A stretch of 64,000 nt of DNA, taken from Rhodospirillaceae bacterium. GTDB lineage: Bacteria; Pseudomonadota; Alphaproteobacteria; MPNO01; UBA2964. Numbering within the stretch: the first letter of the stretch is position 1; every line of letters begins with the position of its first letter. The position numbers were made by a program, and so were the translations under genes. The stretch lies in contig PBIN01000001.1 in NCBI GenBank assembly GCA_002720855.1, forward strand, positions 1 through 64,000, given 5' to 3'. This document shows, in pieces, positions 46,768-53,784 of the stretch. Below the pieces are notes generated by a model. It saw only the letters and a program-made list of their open reading frames with translations. It made no database searches and was not told the DNA's origin.

Positions 46768-47475
46768 CTATATTCGCCACCCTCGCGCACGATTAAAAAG
46801 GTCTGTAATCCAGTATGCCTGAGCACCAATTGCAGCGGCAGGCAATAGAAGCCAGAGGATATCAAACAGCGCGAGTGCGAACACGATCATGCAGAAGTCC
46901 GCTCTACTGAATTTGTGAAATATCAAGATCAGCCAATCGATAATATTTTCAGGCTCTTTCTGCACGACCGCCTGTTCTTCTCTCGTTTGAGCGTTTTCCT
47001 CTGCCTCTTTCCCTGCGTAATAAAAAAGATCAACTACATAATCGATAGTTGCGCCGACAGTCGCGGCCACGCCGCACCAGAACCAAAATATAGTGTCGCT
47101 GGCAATCCAGGTTCCGTATCCAAGCGCTATAAAAAAAACACTGTCAACGAGCCAATCGACGACATCATCAAACTTGGCACCAAATTCCGAAGACAAATTC
47201 TTAAGCCGCGCGATTTCGCCATCGCAGTTGTCTAACGTGTAACCAAGGACGAATAGCGCCCCCCCAATAAGACCGTCCTGATAATTGCCCTGCGCGAAAA
47301 ACCATGCCGCCGCCAATCCGGATAGAAGCGACAGCGCCGTTACATGATTGGGGGTTAAGGGCGTAAGCAGCAACAATTTCGTCAATCGATACGAAAATTG
47401 CCTGACCAGAGGGAAGAGCTGTTCCGGCTTGGTCAATGCCGGGCGATCTCCTGAACTTGTCTGGGGGTCGGTCAT
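46768..47475 (-). CDS. CDP-alcohol phosphatidyltransferase family protein (first)
   Basis: 235-residue membrane enzyme of the CDP-alcohol phosphotransferase family. The complete motif D-x2-DG-x2-AR-x8-G-x3-D-x3-D is present in DNCDGEIARLKNL … EFGAKFDDVVD. Several hydrophobic helices surround it (VTALSLLSGLAAAWFFA, LFVLGYTLDN). It transfers a phospho- or phosphatidyl-alcohol group from a CDP-activated donor, as in phospholipid or inositol-phosphate synthesis. It is divergent from hpnL across 154 nt and unrelated in length to the second copy at 52173, so the cassette has two different members. Confidence 0.88.
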   Translation of the reverse strand: MTDPQTSSGDRPALTKPEQLFPLVRQFSYRLTKLLLLTPLTPNHVTALSLLSGLAAAWFFAQGNYQDGLIGGALFVLGYTLDNCDGEIARLKNLSSEFGAKFDDVVDWLVDSVFFIALGYGTWIASDTIFWFWCGVAATVGATIDYVVDLFYYAGKEAEENAQTREEQAVVQKEPENIIDWLILIFHKFSRADFCMIVFALALFDILWLLLPAAAIGAQAYWITDLFNRARGWRI

Positions 47476-47629
47476 AAAATTAGATTATCTACACACTTGG
47501 TTTCCAACTCTGTCTAATCGAGGCAAGTGATCGAAGCAAGTTTCGAACCAGCACAGCGAACAAGCATCTGGTCATGTCTTCACTCTCCGCTTAAAACCGA
47601 GAAAGACAGAGAACAAAACGCTGCAAAAC

Positions 47630-48649
47630 ATGAAAATCGCGTCATATATCGGTTTGGTTGTGGGCCTCGCCATTTTGATCGCCCTGATTGTCTGGCAAGG
47701 GTTGGAAGACATTGTCACGCTCCTCGCTGCCTCCGGATGGGCGCTTTTGCTAGTGCCTGCAATTTGGTTTCCGACCGTTTTAATGAATGCGCGGTGCTGG
47801 CAACTTCTTTTCCTAAAAGATCATCGCCCGAGCTTCTGGCAGGCGTTCTATGCGCAATGGATGGGGCGCGCAGTAAATACGCTTCTTCCAGTGGCATCCA
47901 TTGGCGGTGAGGTTGTAAAGGCACGTGTCATAACACTTTGGGGAACAGATGCTCGTCATGCCAGTGCCTCTACCATTGTCGATAAGACAGTACAGGTCAT
48001 TACATTAATTCTGTGGGGCGTGTTGGGGATATCCCTGCTTTCGATAATGACACTCGAAGACGATCTCGTCGCAACCGGTGCAATTGGGTTGGCATTGCTG
48101 GGTGCCGGCGTTGCAGGATTTATTGTCGTACAAAAGGCAGGAATATTTGGCATCGTTGTCAAATCCGCACACAAAGTCACCAAGTCCGGTTTTTTGGGCA
48201 AACTGATCGACACGGCGGATCAAATTGATGAACTCGTTTTAGAAGTTTACCGACAAAGAAGCGTACTGGCAGCGGCGACATCCTGGCGATTTGGTGCCTT
48301 GATTTTGCAAACTGGCGAAGTCTGGCTGGCAGCCCAACTTCTGGGTTTCCCTATCGGCCTTCTGGAAGCTCTTATGCTAAAGAGCCTGAGTTCCGTGCTT
48401 AGCGATGCGGCATTTGTCGTGCCCAACAGTTACGGCGTGCAAGAAGGTGCATTCGTTGTGCTCGGCGGTCTCATAGGCATGCCGCCTGATATCGCGATCG
48501 CAGTGTCGCTGGCTATTCGTATACGGGAATTTTTGATTGATGTTCCTGGCCTTGTTATGTGGCAACACGCTGAAGGCAAAGTGCTATTTCGCCGACGTCG
48601 TTCCACCGAATCAAGGAATATGCAGACTGGGGAAGATGAGAAGATTTAA
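47630..48649 (+). CDS. hpnL: HpnL-like membrane protein (LPG-synthase TM domain family)
   Basis: 339 residues with about seven or eight transmembrane helices, including WALLLVPAIWFPTVLMNARC and the conserved SIGGEVVKARVITLWG followed by ASTIVDKTVQVITL. It matches the hopanoid-associated HpnL subgroup of the lysylphosphatidylglycerol-synthetase TM superfamily, suspected to move or protect hopanoid lipids (family knowledge). hpnI starts 90 nt downstream, so it is likely first in a hpnL-I-J-K operon. Confidence 0.85.
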   Translation: MKIASYIGLVVGLAILIALIVWQGLEDIVTLLAASGWALLLVPAIWFPTVLMNARCWQLLFLKDHRPSFWQAFYAQWMGRAVNTLLPVASIGGEVVKARVITLWGTDARHASASTIVDKTVQVITLILWGVLGISLLSIMTLEDDLVATGAIGLALLGAGVAGFIVVQKAGIFGIVVKSAHKVTKSGFLGKLIDTADQIDELVLEVYRQRSVLAAATSWRFGALILQTGEVWLAAQLLGFPIGLLEALMLKSLSSVLSDAAFVVPNSYGVQEGAFVVLGGLIGMPPDIAIAVSLAIRIREFLIDVPGLVMWQHAEGKVLFRRRRSTESRNMQTGEDEKI

Positions 48650-48739
48650 CTGCGTTGGGGCCGCAGTAAGATTGTACTTTGGACGGTTACAGGTTAGACA
48701 TAGCGCCCGAATAATACCGTCGTGATGGGGTAGTCCGGT

Positions 48740-49906
48740 TTGGTGTTCACCATACCTACAATTTTGTCTGTTTTGGCGTTGTCGCTGTTCCTGTTTTCCG
48801 TTGGATACATGGTCATCGCGATAGGTGGCGTCCTTATTTTCGGCAGGAGAATACGAAAAGAACCTCCGGCATCAAACGATCTTTCTGTGACGGTTTTAAA
48901 ACCGATTTGCGGCATAGAACATGAACTTGCGGATAATCTAAGATCGTTCTGCCGTCAGGAATACGGCCAACATCAGTTGATATTCGGTGTCCGGGACAAA
49001 AATGATCCGGCAATTCCAATCATAGAGACGGTCATAAAAGAATTCCCCGAAAGAGATATCGAACTCGTTATTGATGATCAGATCATCGGGTCAAATTATA
49101 AAATCAGCAATTTGGCCAATATGGCGAAATATGCGAAGCACGATGTCTTCGTAATTTCAGACAGCGATATGCGCGTCAGACCTGACTACCTGACACGTGT
49201 GGCAGCACCACTTGTAAATCCGAAAGTCGGGGCGACAACCTGCCTCTATTCAGGTTTGGCTGCCTCCGGCATCGCGTCGCGGCTCGGTGCCATGTTTGTC
49301 AATGACTGGTTTCTACCGTCAGCGCTTATACCAACCATGTTCGGAAAGCTGACATTTTGCTTCGGAGCCACAATGGCTGTCCGCCGAACTGTCCTGGAGA
49401 GCTTTGGCGGGTTCTCAGCGCTGGCAGATTTTTTGGCAGACGATTATATGCTTGGCAGACACGTCGTCGAAAAAGGCTATGACGTTGCCCTGGTTCCATA
49501 TGTCGTCGAAAACATCATTCTGGAACAGGACCTGAAAGGTGTTTTCTTGCACGAAATCAGGTGGGCCAGAACGATTAGGTCGGTGCAGCCCGGGGGATAT
49601 GCTGCATCCGTTCTTACAGAGGTATTTCCTCTATCGATCCTGGCATCAATTGGTGCCTTTACTTTAGGCGCTTCATCCACAATTTCATTATTACCGATTG
49701 TGGTGGCTTTGGGATTCAGATTGGTTTTGCACTACTCAGTCTGTCGTGGATTAACAAGTGGAAATTCCTGCGGCGCTTGGCTTATACCGTTTCGGGATCT
49801 GCTATCGTTTGCGGTTAGAATTTACAGTTTTTGTGGTACGAAAGTGTTGTGGCGGGAGAACGAGTTTGTTGTATTGGCCGACAACCGGCTAAAAGTAGCA
49901 AAGTAG
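48740..49906 (+). CDS. hpnI: hopanoid glycosyltransferase HpnI (GT21-like)
   Basis: 388-residue membrane glycosyltransferase. Opening SVGYMVIAIGGVLIFGRRI is a membrane anchor, then VTVLKPICGIEHELADNL, the D-x-D-type DSDMRVRP, ADDYMLGRHV, and the (Q/R)-x-x-RW motif in HEIRWARTIRSV. These define ceramide glucosyltransferase-like GT21 enzymes; HpnI adds N-acetylglucosamine to bacteriohopanetetrol (shown in Burkholderia). Start is TTG at 48740 (GGGG nine bases upstream) or GTG at 48743. It precedes hpnJ and hpnK in the order of the biochemical pathway. Confidence 0.9.
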   Translation: MVFTIPTILSVLALSLFLFSVGYMVIAIGGVLIFGRRIRKEPPASNDLSVTVLKPICGIEHELADNLRSFCRQEYGQHQLIFGVRDKNDPAIPIIETVIKEFPERDIELVIDDQIIGSNYKISNLANMAKYAKHDVFVISDSDMRVRPDYLTRVAAPLVNPKVGATTCLYSGLAASGIASRLGAMFVNDWFLPSALIPTMFGKLTFCFGATMAVRRTVLESFGGFSALADFLADDYMLGRHVVEKGYDVALVPYVVENIILEQDLKGVFLHEIRWARTIRSVQPGGYAASVLTEVFPLSILASIGAFTLGASSTISLLPIVVALGFRLVLHYSVCRGLTSGNSCGAWLIPFRDLLSFAVRIYSFCGTKVLWRENEFVVLADNRLKVAK

Positions 49907-49942
49907 TTCGGGTTTAATGAATTGGGGAAGTCGGGATTAAAG

Positions 49943-51370
49943 ATGAAGAAGACGCTGTTTTTGAGCCCTCCAACATATGACGGTTATGACGGTGGCGCCG
50001 GATCTCGGTACCAATGCAAACGCGAAGTAAAATCGTTTTGGTACCCAACATGGCTTGCACAACTGGCAGCACTTGTACCGGATAGTAAATTGATCGACGC
50101 GCCGGCGCGCGGTTTGTCCGTTGACGATGTATTACGTGAAGCCAAGGACCATGAGTTTTTGGTTCTCTATACCTCAACCCCGTCATTCGCGAACGATGTC
50201 AAAGTTGCGGAATCATTTAAAGAGCATAATCCTGAAATTATGATTGGGTTCTGTGGTGCCCATGTCGCAATCAATAACGAGGCTGCAATTGTCGCCTCCC
50301 CCGCAATTGATTTTGTCTGCGACACTGAATTTGATTTTACTATCAAGGAAATTGCTGAAGGCAAGCCACTTGAAGAGGTTGTCGGTATCACGATCCTAAA
50401 AGACGGCGAGCCACATTTTACCGGCAAACGCCCGCTGATCGAAAATATGGATACATTGCCGTGGGTTGCTCCGATTTATAAGGAAAACCTGGTTACAACA
50501 GATTACTACAACGGCTACATGCTCCATCCCTATATGTCGCTTTATACCGGCCGCGGATGTAAGTCGCGTTGCACATTTTGCCTTTGGCCGCAAACGATTG
50601 CCGGCCATAACTATCGGACCCGTTCCGTTAAAAACGTTGCAGCGGAAATAGCCTGGGCACGTGATAATTTTCCCGAAATCAAAGAATTCTTCTTCGACGA
50701 CGATACGTTGACCGATAATAGAGAAAACGTTGAGGCCTTGGCGCGTGAACTCGGAAAGCTGGGCGTAACATGGTCCTGCAATGCCAAAGCCAATGTGCCA
50801 TACGACACACTGAAAGTTATGAAAGAAAATGGACTGCGATTGCTTTTGGTTGGTTACGAATCCGGAAATCAGAAAGTCCTGAACAATATCAAAAAAGGTA
50901 TCCTCGTAACTAAGGCGAAGCAGTTCACCCGTGACTGTCACGAGCTTGGTATCCTGATCCACGGCACCTTTATCGTTGGATTGCCCGGCGAAACCCGCGA
51001 TACCATCGAAGAGACAATTCGTTACGCACAGGAGATAAATCCGAAAACGATTCAGGTATCCTTGCCGGCAGCCTATCCGGGAACCTTCCTGTACAAACAG
51101 GCTACAGAAAATGGATGGCTTGTGGCTGAAGAAGGCAATGAACTGGTCGCCGAAAACGGCGTACAAAACAGCGTTCTGCACTACGATCATCTCAGTAAAG
51201 AAGAGATTTTCGAAGCCGTCGACGTGTTTTACAAACGCTTCTATTTCCGGCCCAAGAAAATGGCCGCATTGTTTTTCGATATGTGCCGTGACTGGGACGT
51301 TATGAAGCGGCAGGCCCGCGAAGGTGTTGAGTTCTTCCGCTTCCTCTGGGGTCGGGAGAACGCAGTCTGA
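49943..51370 (+). CDS. hpnJ: hopanoid radical SAM protein HpnJ
   Basis: 475-residue B12-binding-domain radical SAM enzyme. The N-terminal Rossmann-like part (KKTLFLSPPTYDGYDGGAG) precedes the [4Fe-4S] motif C-x3-C-x2-C in GRGCKSRCTFCLWP. HpnJ is required for conversion of the glucosamine-linked hopanoid to the cyclitol ether (genetic work in Burkholderia). The start at 49943 has a GGGATTAAAG leader; a TTG at 49922 is an alternative. Its TGA overlaps the presumed CTG of hpnK. Confidence 0.92.
   Translation: MKKTLFLSPPTYDGYDGGAGSRYQCKREVKSFWYPTWLAQLAALVPDSKLIDAPARGLSVDDVLREAKDHEFLVLYTSTPSFANDVKVAESFKEHNPEIMIGFCGAHVAINNEAAIVASPAIDFVCDTEFDFTIKEIAEGKPLEEVVGITILKDGEPHFTGKRPLIENMDTLPWVAPIYKENLVTTDYYNGYMLHPYMSLYTGRGCKSRCTFCLWPQTIAGHNYRTRSVKNVAAEIAWARDNFPEIKEFFFDDDTLTDNRENVEALARELGKLGVTWSCNAKANVPYDTLKVMKENGLRLLLVGYESGNQKVLNNIKKGILVTKAKQFTRDCHELGILIHGTFIVGLPGETRDTIEETIRYAQEINPKTIQVSLPAAYPGTFLYKQATENGWLVAEEGNELVAENGVQNSVLHYDHLSKEEIFEAVDVFYKRFYFRPKKMAALFFDMCRDWDVMKRQAREGVEFFRFLWGRENAV
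51354..51358 (+). promoter_or_regulatory. ribosome binding site deciding the hpnK start
   Basis: GGGAG ends eight bases before a CTG at 51367. This is ideal spacing, and no ATG, GTG or TTG occurs in that frame between the upstream in-frame stop (51328–51330) and the GTG at 51415. Confidence 0.55.
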
Positions 51371-52176
51371 AACGTCTGATCGTCACTGGCGATGATTTCG
51401 GCATTTCGATCCCTGTGAATGAGGCGATCGAGAAAGCCTATACCGGCGGAATTCTAACAACGACCTGTTTGATGGTTGGGGAATCCTGCGTTGAGGACGC
51501 GGTGTCGCGTGCAAAGCGCCTGCCGCAGCTTGGCGTCGGACTCCACGTTGTAGTGGCGCGAGGAAAACCCACATTATCGCCCAAAGAACTGCCGACAATC
51601 ACGGCCGATGGATTTTTTCATGACAATCTAATTGGTGCCGGATTCCGTTATTTCTTCTCCAAACGAGCCCGGTCAGAACTCCGCGCAGAAATTCGGGCGC
51701 AATTTGAAGCCTTTCAGAAAACCGGATTGATGCTTGATCATGTGAACGCACATAACCACATGCACCTACACCCAACCATCCTCGGTATCATTCTTGAACT
51801 GGCAGAAGAATTTGGCGTCAAGGCCGTCAGACTCCCCGCCGAAAATAGTCAGAACCTTGGCTCATTTCTGCTTACTCCATGGATCGCATTAATGCGCCGG
51901 AGGCTTCGCCGGGCAGGTATACGGTTTAACGACCAAATCGTTGGCATTTCGGAAACGGGTATGCTCGATAAAACAACCCTGTTGGCTGCAATTGATCAAT
52001 TGCCGGACGGGGTAACGGAAGTATTCTCTCATCCTGCAACTAAGCCATGGGAGAGTATGGACCCGAAAGCTTCTGCTTTTAAATTTGAGGAAGAATTTGA
52101 AGCGCTGGTGGCTCCCGAAGTGACCGCCGCAATTAATAAATCTGATATCTCATTGGCGACTTTCAGGGATATATGA
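51367..52176 (+). CDS. hpnK: hopanoid deacetylase HpnK (YdjC-like), probable CTG start
   Basis: 269-residue YdjC-family carbohydrate deacetylase that removes the N-acetyl group from the hopanoid GlcNAc. Metal/catalytic Asp-Asp lies in LIVTGDDFGISIPVNEA, and histidines in LDHVNAHNHMHLHPTI are the other ligands. The first usual start in frame (GTG 51415) lies after the DDFG motif and would delete it. Translation must therefore begin at the CTG at 51367, which overlaps the hpnJ stop as CTGA, or at a nearby non-standard codon. Its own TGA overlaps the next start (ATGA). Confidence 0.9.
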   Translation: MKRLIVTGDDFGISIPVNEAIEKAYTGGILTTTCLMVGESCVEDAVSRAKRLPQLGVGLHVVVARGKPTLSPKELPTITADGFFHDNLIGAGFRYFFSKRARSELRAEIRAQFEAFQKTGLMLDHVNAHNHMHLHPTILGIILELAEEFGVKAVRLPAENSQNLGSFLLTPWIALMRRRLRRAGIRFNDQIVGISETGMLDKTTLLAAIDQLPDGVTEVFSHPATKPWESMDPKASAFKFEEEFEALVAPEVTAAINKSDISLATFRDI

Positions 52177-52778
52177 TGGTCGGTGATTCCTGGACCCACA
52201 AAATCGCAAAAGTCTGTATCGCGCCTCTTGCCAAAACATCTATCACGCCGAACCACCTGACAACAGTACGCCTGGTTTCAGGCATAGCTGCTTGTGCCGC
52301 TTTCGCAACCGGGGACCGCCAATGGGAAATTTGGGGCGGTTGGCTCTGGTTGTTTTCCGCATTTATGGATCGCGCCGATGGCGAACTGGCCCGAATGACT
52401 GGCAAGACCTCTCCGGGTGGCCATCGCTACGACATGATCTGCGATATCACTGTCACCTCGCTCTTTTTTCTGGGTGCTGGAATTGGTTTACGCGATGGTT
52501 ATTTCGGCAACTGGGCTATCCTAATGGGTGCTATGGGTACTGCGGGCGTATTTGCCGCAGAAATTTATGCCGAGAAAATCGATCAGATGAACAGCGATAC
52601 CGGAGACAAAGCCTATCCGGGATTCTGGGGTTTTGATTTCGACGACGTGCTCTACCTCTTCGCCCCAATAGTCTGGTTGGGCTGGCAAATGCCATTTGTC
52701 GTCGGCGCTTCTATCGGTGCACCGGCATTTGCGCTGCTCACCTGGTACAAATATCGGAAAAAGCTGCGGGAAGATTAA
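52173..52778 (+). CDS. CDP-alcohol phosphatidyltransferase family protein (second)
   Basis: 201-residue membrane enzyme. The complete motif is in DRADGELARMTGKTSPGGHRYDMICD (D-x2-DG-x2-AR-x8-G-x3-D-x3-D; 52372–52444 approximately). Opening PLAKTSITPNHLTTVRLVSG is typical of the family. It is coupled to hpnK by an ATGA overlap, so it belongs to the hopanoid operon rather than merely lying near it. It could build a phospholipid that accompanies hopanoids, or modify a hopanoid head group. Neither is established. Confidence 0.88.
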   Translation: MMVGDSWTHKIAKVCIAPLAKTSITPNHLTTVRLVSGIAACAAFATGDRQWEIWGGWLWLFSAFMDRADGELARMTGKTSPGGHRYDMICDITVTSLFFLGAGIGLRDGYFGNWAILMGAMGTAGVFAAEIYAEKIDQMNSDTGDKAYPGFWGFDFDDVLYLFAPIVWLGWQMPFVVGASIGAPAFALLTWYKYRKKLRED

Positions 52779-53656
52779 TCCCGCTCTGCGAATTCTCCAC
52801 CAAGCCAGTCTTGCATCCATCTGCGATGATCGTTCTCGCGGGTGAGACGTTGTAGCATGTCTTTAGGTGCCACCGAGGTGAGGTCATTTGGCGGTGTCCC
52901 GTCACGCAATGCCTTCAATGTGTCATAGGTCGCCTTTATCGCAGCTTGTATTGGGTGATGTCCCTGCAAACAAATTCTGACACCTGCTGCACTCAAAGTT
53001 TCCAAGTCTCCTAAACCTGATGCTGCACCTCCGAGGAAAATCGGAATGTTCACTGCTTCCGATACGGCCGAAAGCTGATCGGTGCTGGAAACACCAGACA
53101 AAAATACCGCATCCACCCCGACGGATTCGTATGCCTTGATCCGGGCGACAGTGTCTTCAATACCGGAAATTGCCATGGCCCCCGTCCGTCCGGCAACAAC
53201 CAAGGAAGAATCCTGACGGCCATCCAGAGCCGCCTTCATTTTACCGACACCTTCTTCAATCGAAATAAGTTGGGTCCCGCCAACGGTTCCATAACTCTGA
53301 GGTAACTCCGTATCTTCGATGGTTAACGCGGCGACGCCGGCTGTCTCCAACTCTTCCACAGTCCGGCGAACGTTAAGGGCGTTGCCATAGCCGTGGTCTG
53401 CATCCACGAGTAACGGCAGATTTCCAGCGCGGCAAATTCGATAGGATTGGTCGGCAAACTCGGAAAGACTTAGGACGATCAGGTCTGGTGCCCCAAGTAC
53501 AGCCATTGATGCAACCGAGCCCGCAAACATGCCAACTTTGAAGCCCAACTCCTCCGCTATGCGTGCGGAAATGGGATCAAAGACAGAACCCGGGTGAACA
53601 CAGCGGTCTCCTTCAATTATGGCGCGAAACCGTTGACGTCTGTCAGCCCAATGCAT
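52775..53656 (-). CDS. isocitrate lyase/PEP mutase superfamily protein (oxaloacetate decarboxylase-like)
   Basis: 293-residue TIM-barrel enzyme. N-terminal HPGSVFDPISARIAEELGFK, LLVDADHGYGNALNVRRTVE with the metal-binding Asp pair, and TIEDTELPQSYG. The absence of the KKCGH-type catalytic Cys loop of isocitrate and methylisocitrate lyases favours oxaloacetate decarboxylase or a C-C hydrolase. ATG at 53656 is chosen on AAGGA six bases upstream; ATG 53662 is possible. Shares stop bases (TTAA) with the convergent CDP-alcohol transferase. Confidence 0.88.
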   Translation of the reverse strand: MHWADRRQRFRAIIEGDRCVHPGSVFDPISARIAEELGFKVGMFAGSVASMAVLGAPDLIVLSLSEFADQSYRICRAGNLPLLVDADHGYGNALNVRRTVEELETAGVAALTIEDTELPQSYGTVGGTQLISIEEGVGKMKAALDGRQDSSLVVAGRTGAMAISGIEDTVARIKAYESVGVDAVFLSGVSSTDQLSAVSEAVNIPIFLGGAASGLGDLETLSAAGVRICLQGHHPIQAAIKATYDTLKALRDGTPPNDLTSVAPKDMLQRLTRENDHRRWMQDWLGGEFAERD

Positions 53657-53784
53657 ATCCATTCCTTTCACGAAAAATTTGTCGGCAAGCTACCCCATAA
53701 AGGTAATAATGAAAATCTGCCCCCTTGCGAATGCGCAAAAAGCTCGGCAGTTTAGCGTTCCCTTGAAAAAAGCGAATTGAGACC

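Follow-up and report, generated by a model that had tools for sequence, protein, structure and literature searches.

A hopanoid gene cassette with CDP-alcohol phosphotransferases as a candidate half of a split phosphonohopanoid pathway

Hopanoids serve bacteria as sterols, in the place of cholesterol, and are major geochemical biomarkers. We analysed 64,000 nucleotides from a Rhodospirillaceae bacterium (assembly GCA_002720855.1, contig PBIN01000001.1, positions 1 to 64,000), hereafter the window, in which the hopanoid genes hpnL, hpnI, hpnJ and hpnK are accompanied by two genes for cytidine diphosphate (CDP)-alcohol phosphotransferases, CDP-OH_A and CDP-OH_B. The best explanation of the window is a phosphonohopanoid pathway that is split in two, with one half encoded here, and in which 2-aminoethylphosphonate (AEP) would be transferred to a hopanoid; we put the probability of this reading at about 0.68, and the acceptor is its least certain step.

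Several described systems share part of this arrangement, and statements on the papers cited here refer to the consulted parts of their text. The HpnI-HpnK-HpnJ route to the bacteriohopanetetrol cyclitol ether (PMC12583986) is matched by all three enzymes, which score above their cut-offs and lie in one operon with hpnL, but two CDP-alcohol phosphotransferases are additional here, one of them coupled to hpnK. AEP cytidylyltransferases (PntC) making cytidine monophosphate (CMP)-AEP are established (Rice et al. 2019, PMC6697681). The Pnt pathway of that report has in common with our genome phosphoenolpyruvate (PEP) mutase, in many cases as a fusion with a MobA-like nucleotidyltransferase, phosphonopyruvate decarboxylase (Ppd) and AEP transaminase, which lead to CMP-activated AEP for the cell surface. 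Pnt clusters employ LicD-like phosphotransferases or glycosyltransferases for glycans, whereas here a CDP-alcohol phosphotransferase comes last, amid hopanoid genes; a search of the consulted text of PMC6697681 returned mention of neither hopanoids nor CDP-alcohol enzymes. A hybrid cluster of the same kind as ours, linking shc to PEP mutase, was reported in Roseomonas in 2021 by authors who proposed an undiscovered terpene-phosphonate (PMC8776678). CDP-alcohol transferases, nucleotidyl activation, the hpnIJK cassette, an HpnN fusion and a spread into Gammaproteobacteria and Cyanobacteria do not figure in the consulted text of that work. It was the only relevant paper on phosphonate-bearing hopanoids in the open-access literature searched (subscription papers and preprints lay outside the scope), where neither the transferases nor their connection with hpnIJK nor a phosphonate hopanoid turned up in any report. 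Among solved proteins, AF2299, CEPT1/CHPT1, DIPPS and PIPS have the fold and active-site motif of the window transferases, but identity is only 12-20% and the characterised ones use other donors and acceptors.

Phosphonate genes and transferases in the genome

The full predicted route from PEP to nucleotide-activated AEP is, by profile matches, encoded in this genome, mostly among hopanoid genes, because Ppd, the AEP transaminase PhnW and a PEP mutase fusion are all present. The core hopanoid genes lie on contig 4 with a third related transferase, CDP-OH_C, in an operon that reads NifU, MlaA, MlaC/hpnM-like, HpnL-type, HpnN, CDP-OH_C, PhnW, Ppd, PhnY-like oxygenase, amidohydrolase, nucleoside triphosphate (NTP) transferase, HpnA, HpnH, HpnG and Shc. 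Within it, Ppd, a biosynthetic enzyme, reaches 438.6 bits against an equivalog cut-off of 312.5 and PhnW 465.3 against 400.8, and HpnN (976 bits) stands directly beside CDP-OH_C. PEP mutase is encoded on contig 15 (G000:C15; 384 bits, cut-off 319.6). Its EDKLFPKTNS fits the signature EDKxxxxxNS, it gives 376 bits to a PEP mutase whose structure is known (1pym group), and it is fused to a MobA-like nucleotidyltransferase. Both nucleotidyltransferases weakly match PntC of T. denticola (6pd1, E 2e-5 and 1e-4) and LicC (1jyk, E 2e-8 and 4e-5).

All three transferases, CDP-OH_A, CDP-OH_B and CDP-OH_C, retain the motif D(x)2DG(x)2AR(x)8G(x)3D(x)3D, which is complete in 128 of 147 homologues. By sequence comparison, CDP-OH_A and CDP-OH_B are distant homologues (35% identity over ~125 aa, E 5.7e-16) and not unrelated, as the earlier note had called them; its statement that shc, hpnH and hpnG lie outside the window was correct. 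An AlphaFold model of CDP-OH_A (predicted local distance difference test score, pLDDT, 90.5) matches AF2299 with Z 20.1 and a root-mean-square deviation of 2.8 over 188 residues, and also PIPS, DIPPS and choline/ethanolamine enzymes. This modelled match confirms the helical membrane fold of the family and says nothing on substrate.

The motif is disrupted in some CDP-OH paralogues that occur in pairs in core hopanoid clusters (L051, L053, L055, L155, L156, L158, L162, L165, L168 and L176-L180). Several lack the fourth aspartate, which is proposed as the catalytic base, and an intact copy is often adjacent; judged by sequence, the disrupted copies may be pseudo-enzymes or may pair with another copy as heterodimers. 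In the window's genome, the PEP mutase fusion has an odd neighbourhood (L169, 9758-14150): next to it lie an adenylylsulfate kinase and a protein in which pyruvate kinase is fused to ATP sulfurylase. In the core hopanoid operon of the genus (L038, 13321-14850) the amidohydrolase is flanked by the PhnY-like oxygenase and the NTP transferase.

Linkage, phylogeny and co-occurrence in relatives

The cassette is kept in ~30 alpha- and gammaproteobacterial genomes. In a member of the same family (L046), hpnJ-hpnI-hpnL/CDP-OH_B adjoins CDP-OH_C-PhnW-Ppd-PhnY-NTP transferase-hpnA-hpnH-hpnG-shc, all within 13.5 kb (the gene contexts of L045, L046 and L049 were redone by six-frame search; long open reading frames without a family there are simple gene-caller artefacts). 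Two metagenome-assembled genomes of Legionellales (L114, L116) carry hpnLIJK-CDP-OH_A and then, after ~3.4 kb, shc, hpnG, PhnY, hpnN, a second CDP-OH gene and hpnA. CDP-OH genes directly adjoin HpnN in ~20 loci, and at L050 (9516-12809) the transferase is fused in frame to this hopanoid transporter (1097 aa). The divergent position of CDP-OH_B is kept in 29 sampled loci, and at all 34 sampled copies of CDP-OH_B an HpnL-type gene lies alongside.

Linkage of the transferase to hpnIJK is conserved across alpha- and gammaproteobacteria, so that the lack of conservation which the earlier note would have taken as refuting it did not come about, but coupling to hpnK is rejected as a universal rule, because hopanoid producers with HpnK and without PEP mutase have no CDP-OH_A-type transferase. 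At three loci (L095, L099, L112) no hpnK lies between hpnJ and CDP-OH_A; deacetylation is therefore missing there or carried out by another enzyme.

A quick tree of 148 sequences (FastTree, ~220 columns), used for its main splits only, places CDP-OH_A within a clade of 35 hpnIJK-linked enzymes from alpha- and gammaproteobacteria (Shimodaira-Hasegawa support 99). This clade is nested in one of 71 (support 99), whose other members, from Magnetospirillum, Telmatospirillum, Acidisphaera and others, come largely from clusters of the type PepM-PntC-Ppd-HpnL-CDP-OH-PhnW. CDP-OH_B and CDP-OH_C form separate groups.

Co-occurrence was scored in 289 alphaproteobacterial genomes, with a transferase profile threshold of E up to 1e-20. 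The transferase was found in 31 genomes, HpnH in 77 and PEP mutase in 30 (29 above the cut-off and one truncated copy). HpnH accompanied the transferase in 31/31 genomes (8.3 expected, P 7e-21), and still in 22/22 once the genomes contributing to the profile were left out (P 1.5e-15). PEP mutase was present in 26 of the 31 (3.2 expected, P 6e-28; P 2e-12 within HpnH-positive genomes). Conversely, 29 of the 30 PEP mutase genomes have HpnH, the remaining one (G226) possessing a different, unfused type of enzyme, 35% identical. Strong CDP-OH_B homologues were all (10/10) in genomes positive for both PEP mutase and HpnH. PEP mutase lies no more than ~10 kb from the transferase or hpnH in 18 of its 30 genomes (P 3e-21 by a rough binomial estimate). 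Because the genomes are related, the true P values must be larger than these; estimated by family (20 families, with the total of families sampled itself an estimate), P is still ~3e-12. PEP-mutase-like proteins under the cut-off, taken as a control, associate with neither the transferase nor HpnH. This control, the exclusion of profile genomes and the family-level test are the grounds for rejecting chance co-occurrence or shared ancestry.

A set of 30 further named carriers, selected for transferase presence and including Gammaproteobacteria and Cyanobacteria, contains PEP mutase in 26/30 and HpnH in 29/30, and in most gammaproteobacterial genomes examined the PEP mutase cluster lies near hpnH. 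The sole named carrier without both is L134 (Solirubrobacterales bacterium 70-9), whose contig may be a binning error.

Proposed pathway and competing explanations

In the pathway that we propose, PEP mutase would convert PEP to phosphonopyruvate, Ppd would turn this into phosphonoacetaldehyde and AEP transaminase would yield AEP, which the PhnY-like Fe(II)/2-oxoglutarate enzyme might optionally hydroxylate. CMP-(hydroxy)AEP would then be formed by MobA-like nucleotidyltransferase activity, residing in the PEP mutase fusion, in the separate protein or in both, and from it the CDP-alcohol phosphotransferases would pass the phosphonyl group to a hydroxyl of a bacteriohopanepolyol, releasing CMP. 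CDP-OH_C, in the core operon, would use bacteriohopanetetrol as acceptor, and the hpnK-coupled CDP-OH_A the HpnI/K/J product in its glucosamine or cyclitol-ether form. Transport of the product across membranes, and from one membrane to another, would fall to HpnL-type and HpnN proteins.

The predicted steps up to AEP rest on enzymes above curated cut-offs. Activation of AEP by cytidine triphosphate is suggested by likeness to PntC (PMC6697681) and by the weak matches to solved relatives, and transfer to a hopanoid by linkage, fusion, co-occurrence and phylogeny; the separate acceptors of CDP-OH_A and CDP-OH_C are read from their operons. We infer, too, the substrates, the step order, the accepting hydroxyl and the role of CDP-OH_B, which could serve a second donor or acceptor. 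CDP-OH_A is named here as a proposed CMP-phosphonate:hopanoid transferase and CDP-OH_B as a proposed hopanoid-modifying transferase of uncertain donor. At its core, the earlier suggestion of a phospho-type addition to the hopanoid head by a CDP-alcohol enzyme agrees with this, but a phosphonate from a CMP conjugate is likelier than a phosphatidyl or ordinary phospho-alcohol group. Phosphonate biosynthesis genes, which that suggestion overlooked, accompany the transferases, so that a phosphonate (AEP or its hydroxy form) is the most probable group. We hold it probable, if a shade less so than the pathway itself, that (hydroxy)AEP-hopanoids are an undescribed membrane-lipid class of many Alphaproteobacteria and some Gammaproteobacteria and Cyanobacteria, that alphaproteobacterial PEP-mutase capacity mostly serves it and that CDP-OH_A extends it to glucosamine and cyclitol-ether hopanoids.

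A number of observations weigh against the phosphonohopanoid pathway. No phosphonate-bearing hopanoid lipid has been seen so far, and three of the 289 genomes have PEP mutase and HpnH without a transferase match. In the window's genome, PEP mutase is unlinked to both hpn clusters. The modelled fold match of CDP-OH_A is common to enzymes of several chemistries, and family profiles cannot separate transfer to hopanoids from transfer to diacylglycerol. A 2025 survey profiled 52 alphaproteobacteria and 63 intact hopanoids (PMC12583986); its consulted text gives one match to the word 'phospho' and describes no phosphonate, and the survey includes Skermanella aerolata, a cultured species that carries the cluster (L160). 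Acidisphaera sp. L21 and Caulobacter sp. S45 are further carriers in culture. For S. aerolata the same paper reports no Rohmer degradation products, yet hopanoids by liquid chromatography-mass spectrometry, a discrepancy that its authors call unclear; a modified side chain might lie behind the missing products.

Enzymes of this family can also act on glycerolipids: ethanolaminephosphotransferase uses diacylglycerol with CDP-ethanolamine, the CDP-choline/ethanolamine:diacylglycerol enzymes CEPT1 and CHPT1 are among the PDB sequence-profile relatives of the transferases, and folds of both donor types match. The transferases might thus make an AEP phosphonolipid on diacylglycerol that merely cooperates with hopanoids in the outer membrane, and four clusters (L130, L147, L150, L153) have within 10 kb no hopanoid core gene save an HpnL-type one. 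We regard this as unlikely: such an acceptor requires no hopanoid genes, every one of the 31 alphaproteobacterial carriers is a hopanoid producer by the HpnH test, and the hpnK coupling and HpnN fusion are hard to account for. A second alternative gives the window enzymes a different donor, either another CDP-alcohol or a lipid nucleotide (CDP-inositol, CDP-glycerol and CDP-diacylglycerol are examples). Their product would then be a phospho- or phosphatidyl-hopanoid, and only CDP-OH_C or another product would depend on the phosphonate genes. The cassette is physically separate from the phosphonate genes in this genome, CDP-OH_B forms its own clade, and archaetidylinositol phosphate synthase and IPCT-DIPPS head the NCBIfam matches, albeit far under cut-off (no more than 63.9, 61.6 and 44.7 bits for archaetidylinositol phosphate synthase, DIPPS and PIPS, with equivalog cut-offs of 180, 580 and 170). 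Such a donor nevertheless seems distinctly improbable, given that the nearest CDP-OH_A relatives beyond hpnIJK cassettes sit in PepM-Ppd-PhnW clusters and in view of the restriction of CDP-OH_A and strong CDP-OH_B homologues described above.

Membership of PF01066 and the general motif would also suit ordinary PgsA, PssA or cardiolipin enzymes of glycerophospholipid synthesis that stand beside hpn genes by chance. We reject this identity, which has hardly any probability left. Seven PF01066 genes occur in the genome, and three of them, all outside the window, are PgsA (149.8 bits), a PgsA/Cls-like enzyme and PssA, the true PgsA and PssA both exceeding their equivalog cut-offs (TIGR00560, 109.1; TIGR00473, 107). 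On the same profiles CDP-OH_A has no match and CDP-OH_B 25.3 and 26.8 bits (at most 27), and the arrangement is kept across classes. The outcome that the earlier note named as speaking against it, PgsA/PssA orthologues with the usual copies absent elsewhere, did not hold.

If the phosphonohopanoid pathway operates, it makes a membrane-lipid class so far never isolated. Should many marine and soil bacteria cap hopanoids with phosphonate, a lipid pool may escape standard hopanoid analyses, and bacterial membranes would supply aminoethylphosphonate to the phosphorus cycle of the ocean. The proposal also suggests a function for a CDP-alcohol enzyme family only weakly named by current libraries, and a plausible role, the movement of the modified lipid, for HpnL-type proteins.

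The window cassette and its neighbouring gene

Table 1. Features of the cassette and the adjoining gene in the window.
Feature	Positions	Strand	Family match	Remarks
CDP-OH_B	46768-47475	-	PF01066, 44.9 bits (cut-off 22)	divergent from hpnL
hpnL, flippase-like membrane protein	47630-48649	+	HpnL TIGR03476, 260.7 bits (cut-off 195.65)	
hpnI, bacteriohopanetetrol N-acetylglucosamine transferase	48740-49906	+	TIGR03472, 410 bits (cut-off 310)	
hpnJ, radical S-adenosylmethionine enzyme for cyclitol ether	49922-51370	+	TIGR03471, 746.5 bits (cut-off 577.6)	likely start ATG 49943
hpnK, deacetylase	51367-52176	+	TIGR03473, 341.6 bits (cut-off 232.6)	
CDP-OH_A	52173-52778	+	PF01066, 52.8 bits (cut-off 22)	ATGA overlap with hpnK stop
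Isocitrate lyase/PEP mutase superfamily protein	52775-53671		PF13714	convergent with CDP-OH_A

The four hpn genes each exceed a curated NCBIfam cut-off and form one operon (Table 1). Open reading frames and family profiles bore out the order hpnL-hpnI-hpnJ-hpnK-CDP-OH_A, the ATGA junction, by which CDP-OH_A is, on sequence, translationally coupled to hpnK, and the spacer of 154 nt between hpnL and the divergent CDP-OH_B upstream of it, all as first noted.

The superfamily protein next to CDP-OH_A, whose gene is kept there in the genus members examined, was considered as the missing PEP mutase and rejected: it reaches 88 bits against the cut-off of 319.6, and EDTELPQSYG replaces EDKxxxxxNS.

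Upstream of the conserved N-terminus of HpnK there is no ATG, GTG or TTG start, and hpnK appears from the sequence to begin at a CTG sharing bases with the stop codon of hpnJ (CTGA). The (C/T)TGA junction between hpnJ and hpnK is kept in alpha- and gammaproteobacterial relatives, with TTG instead of CTG in L118. The junction in the window (51330-51400) would be a conserved non-ATG start or a site of coupled re-initiation.

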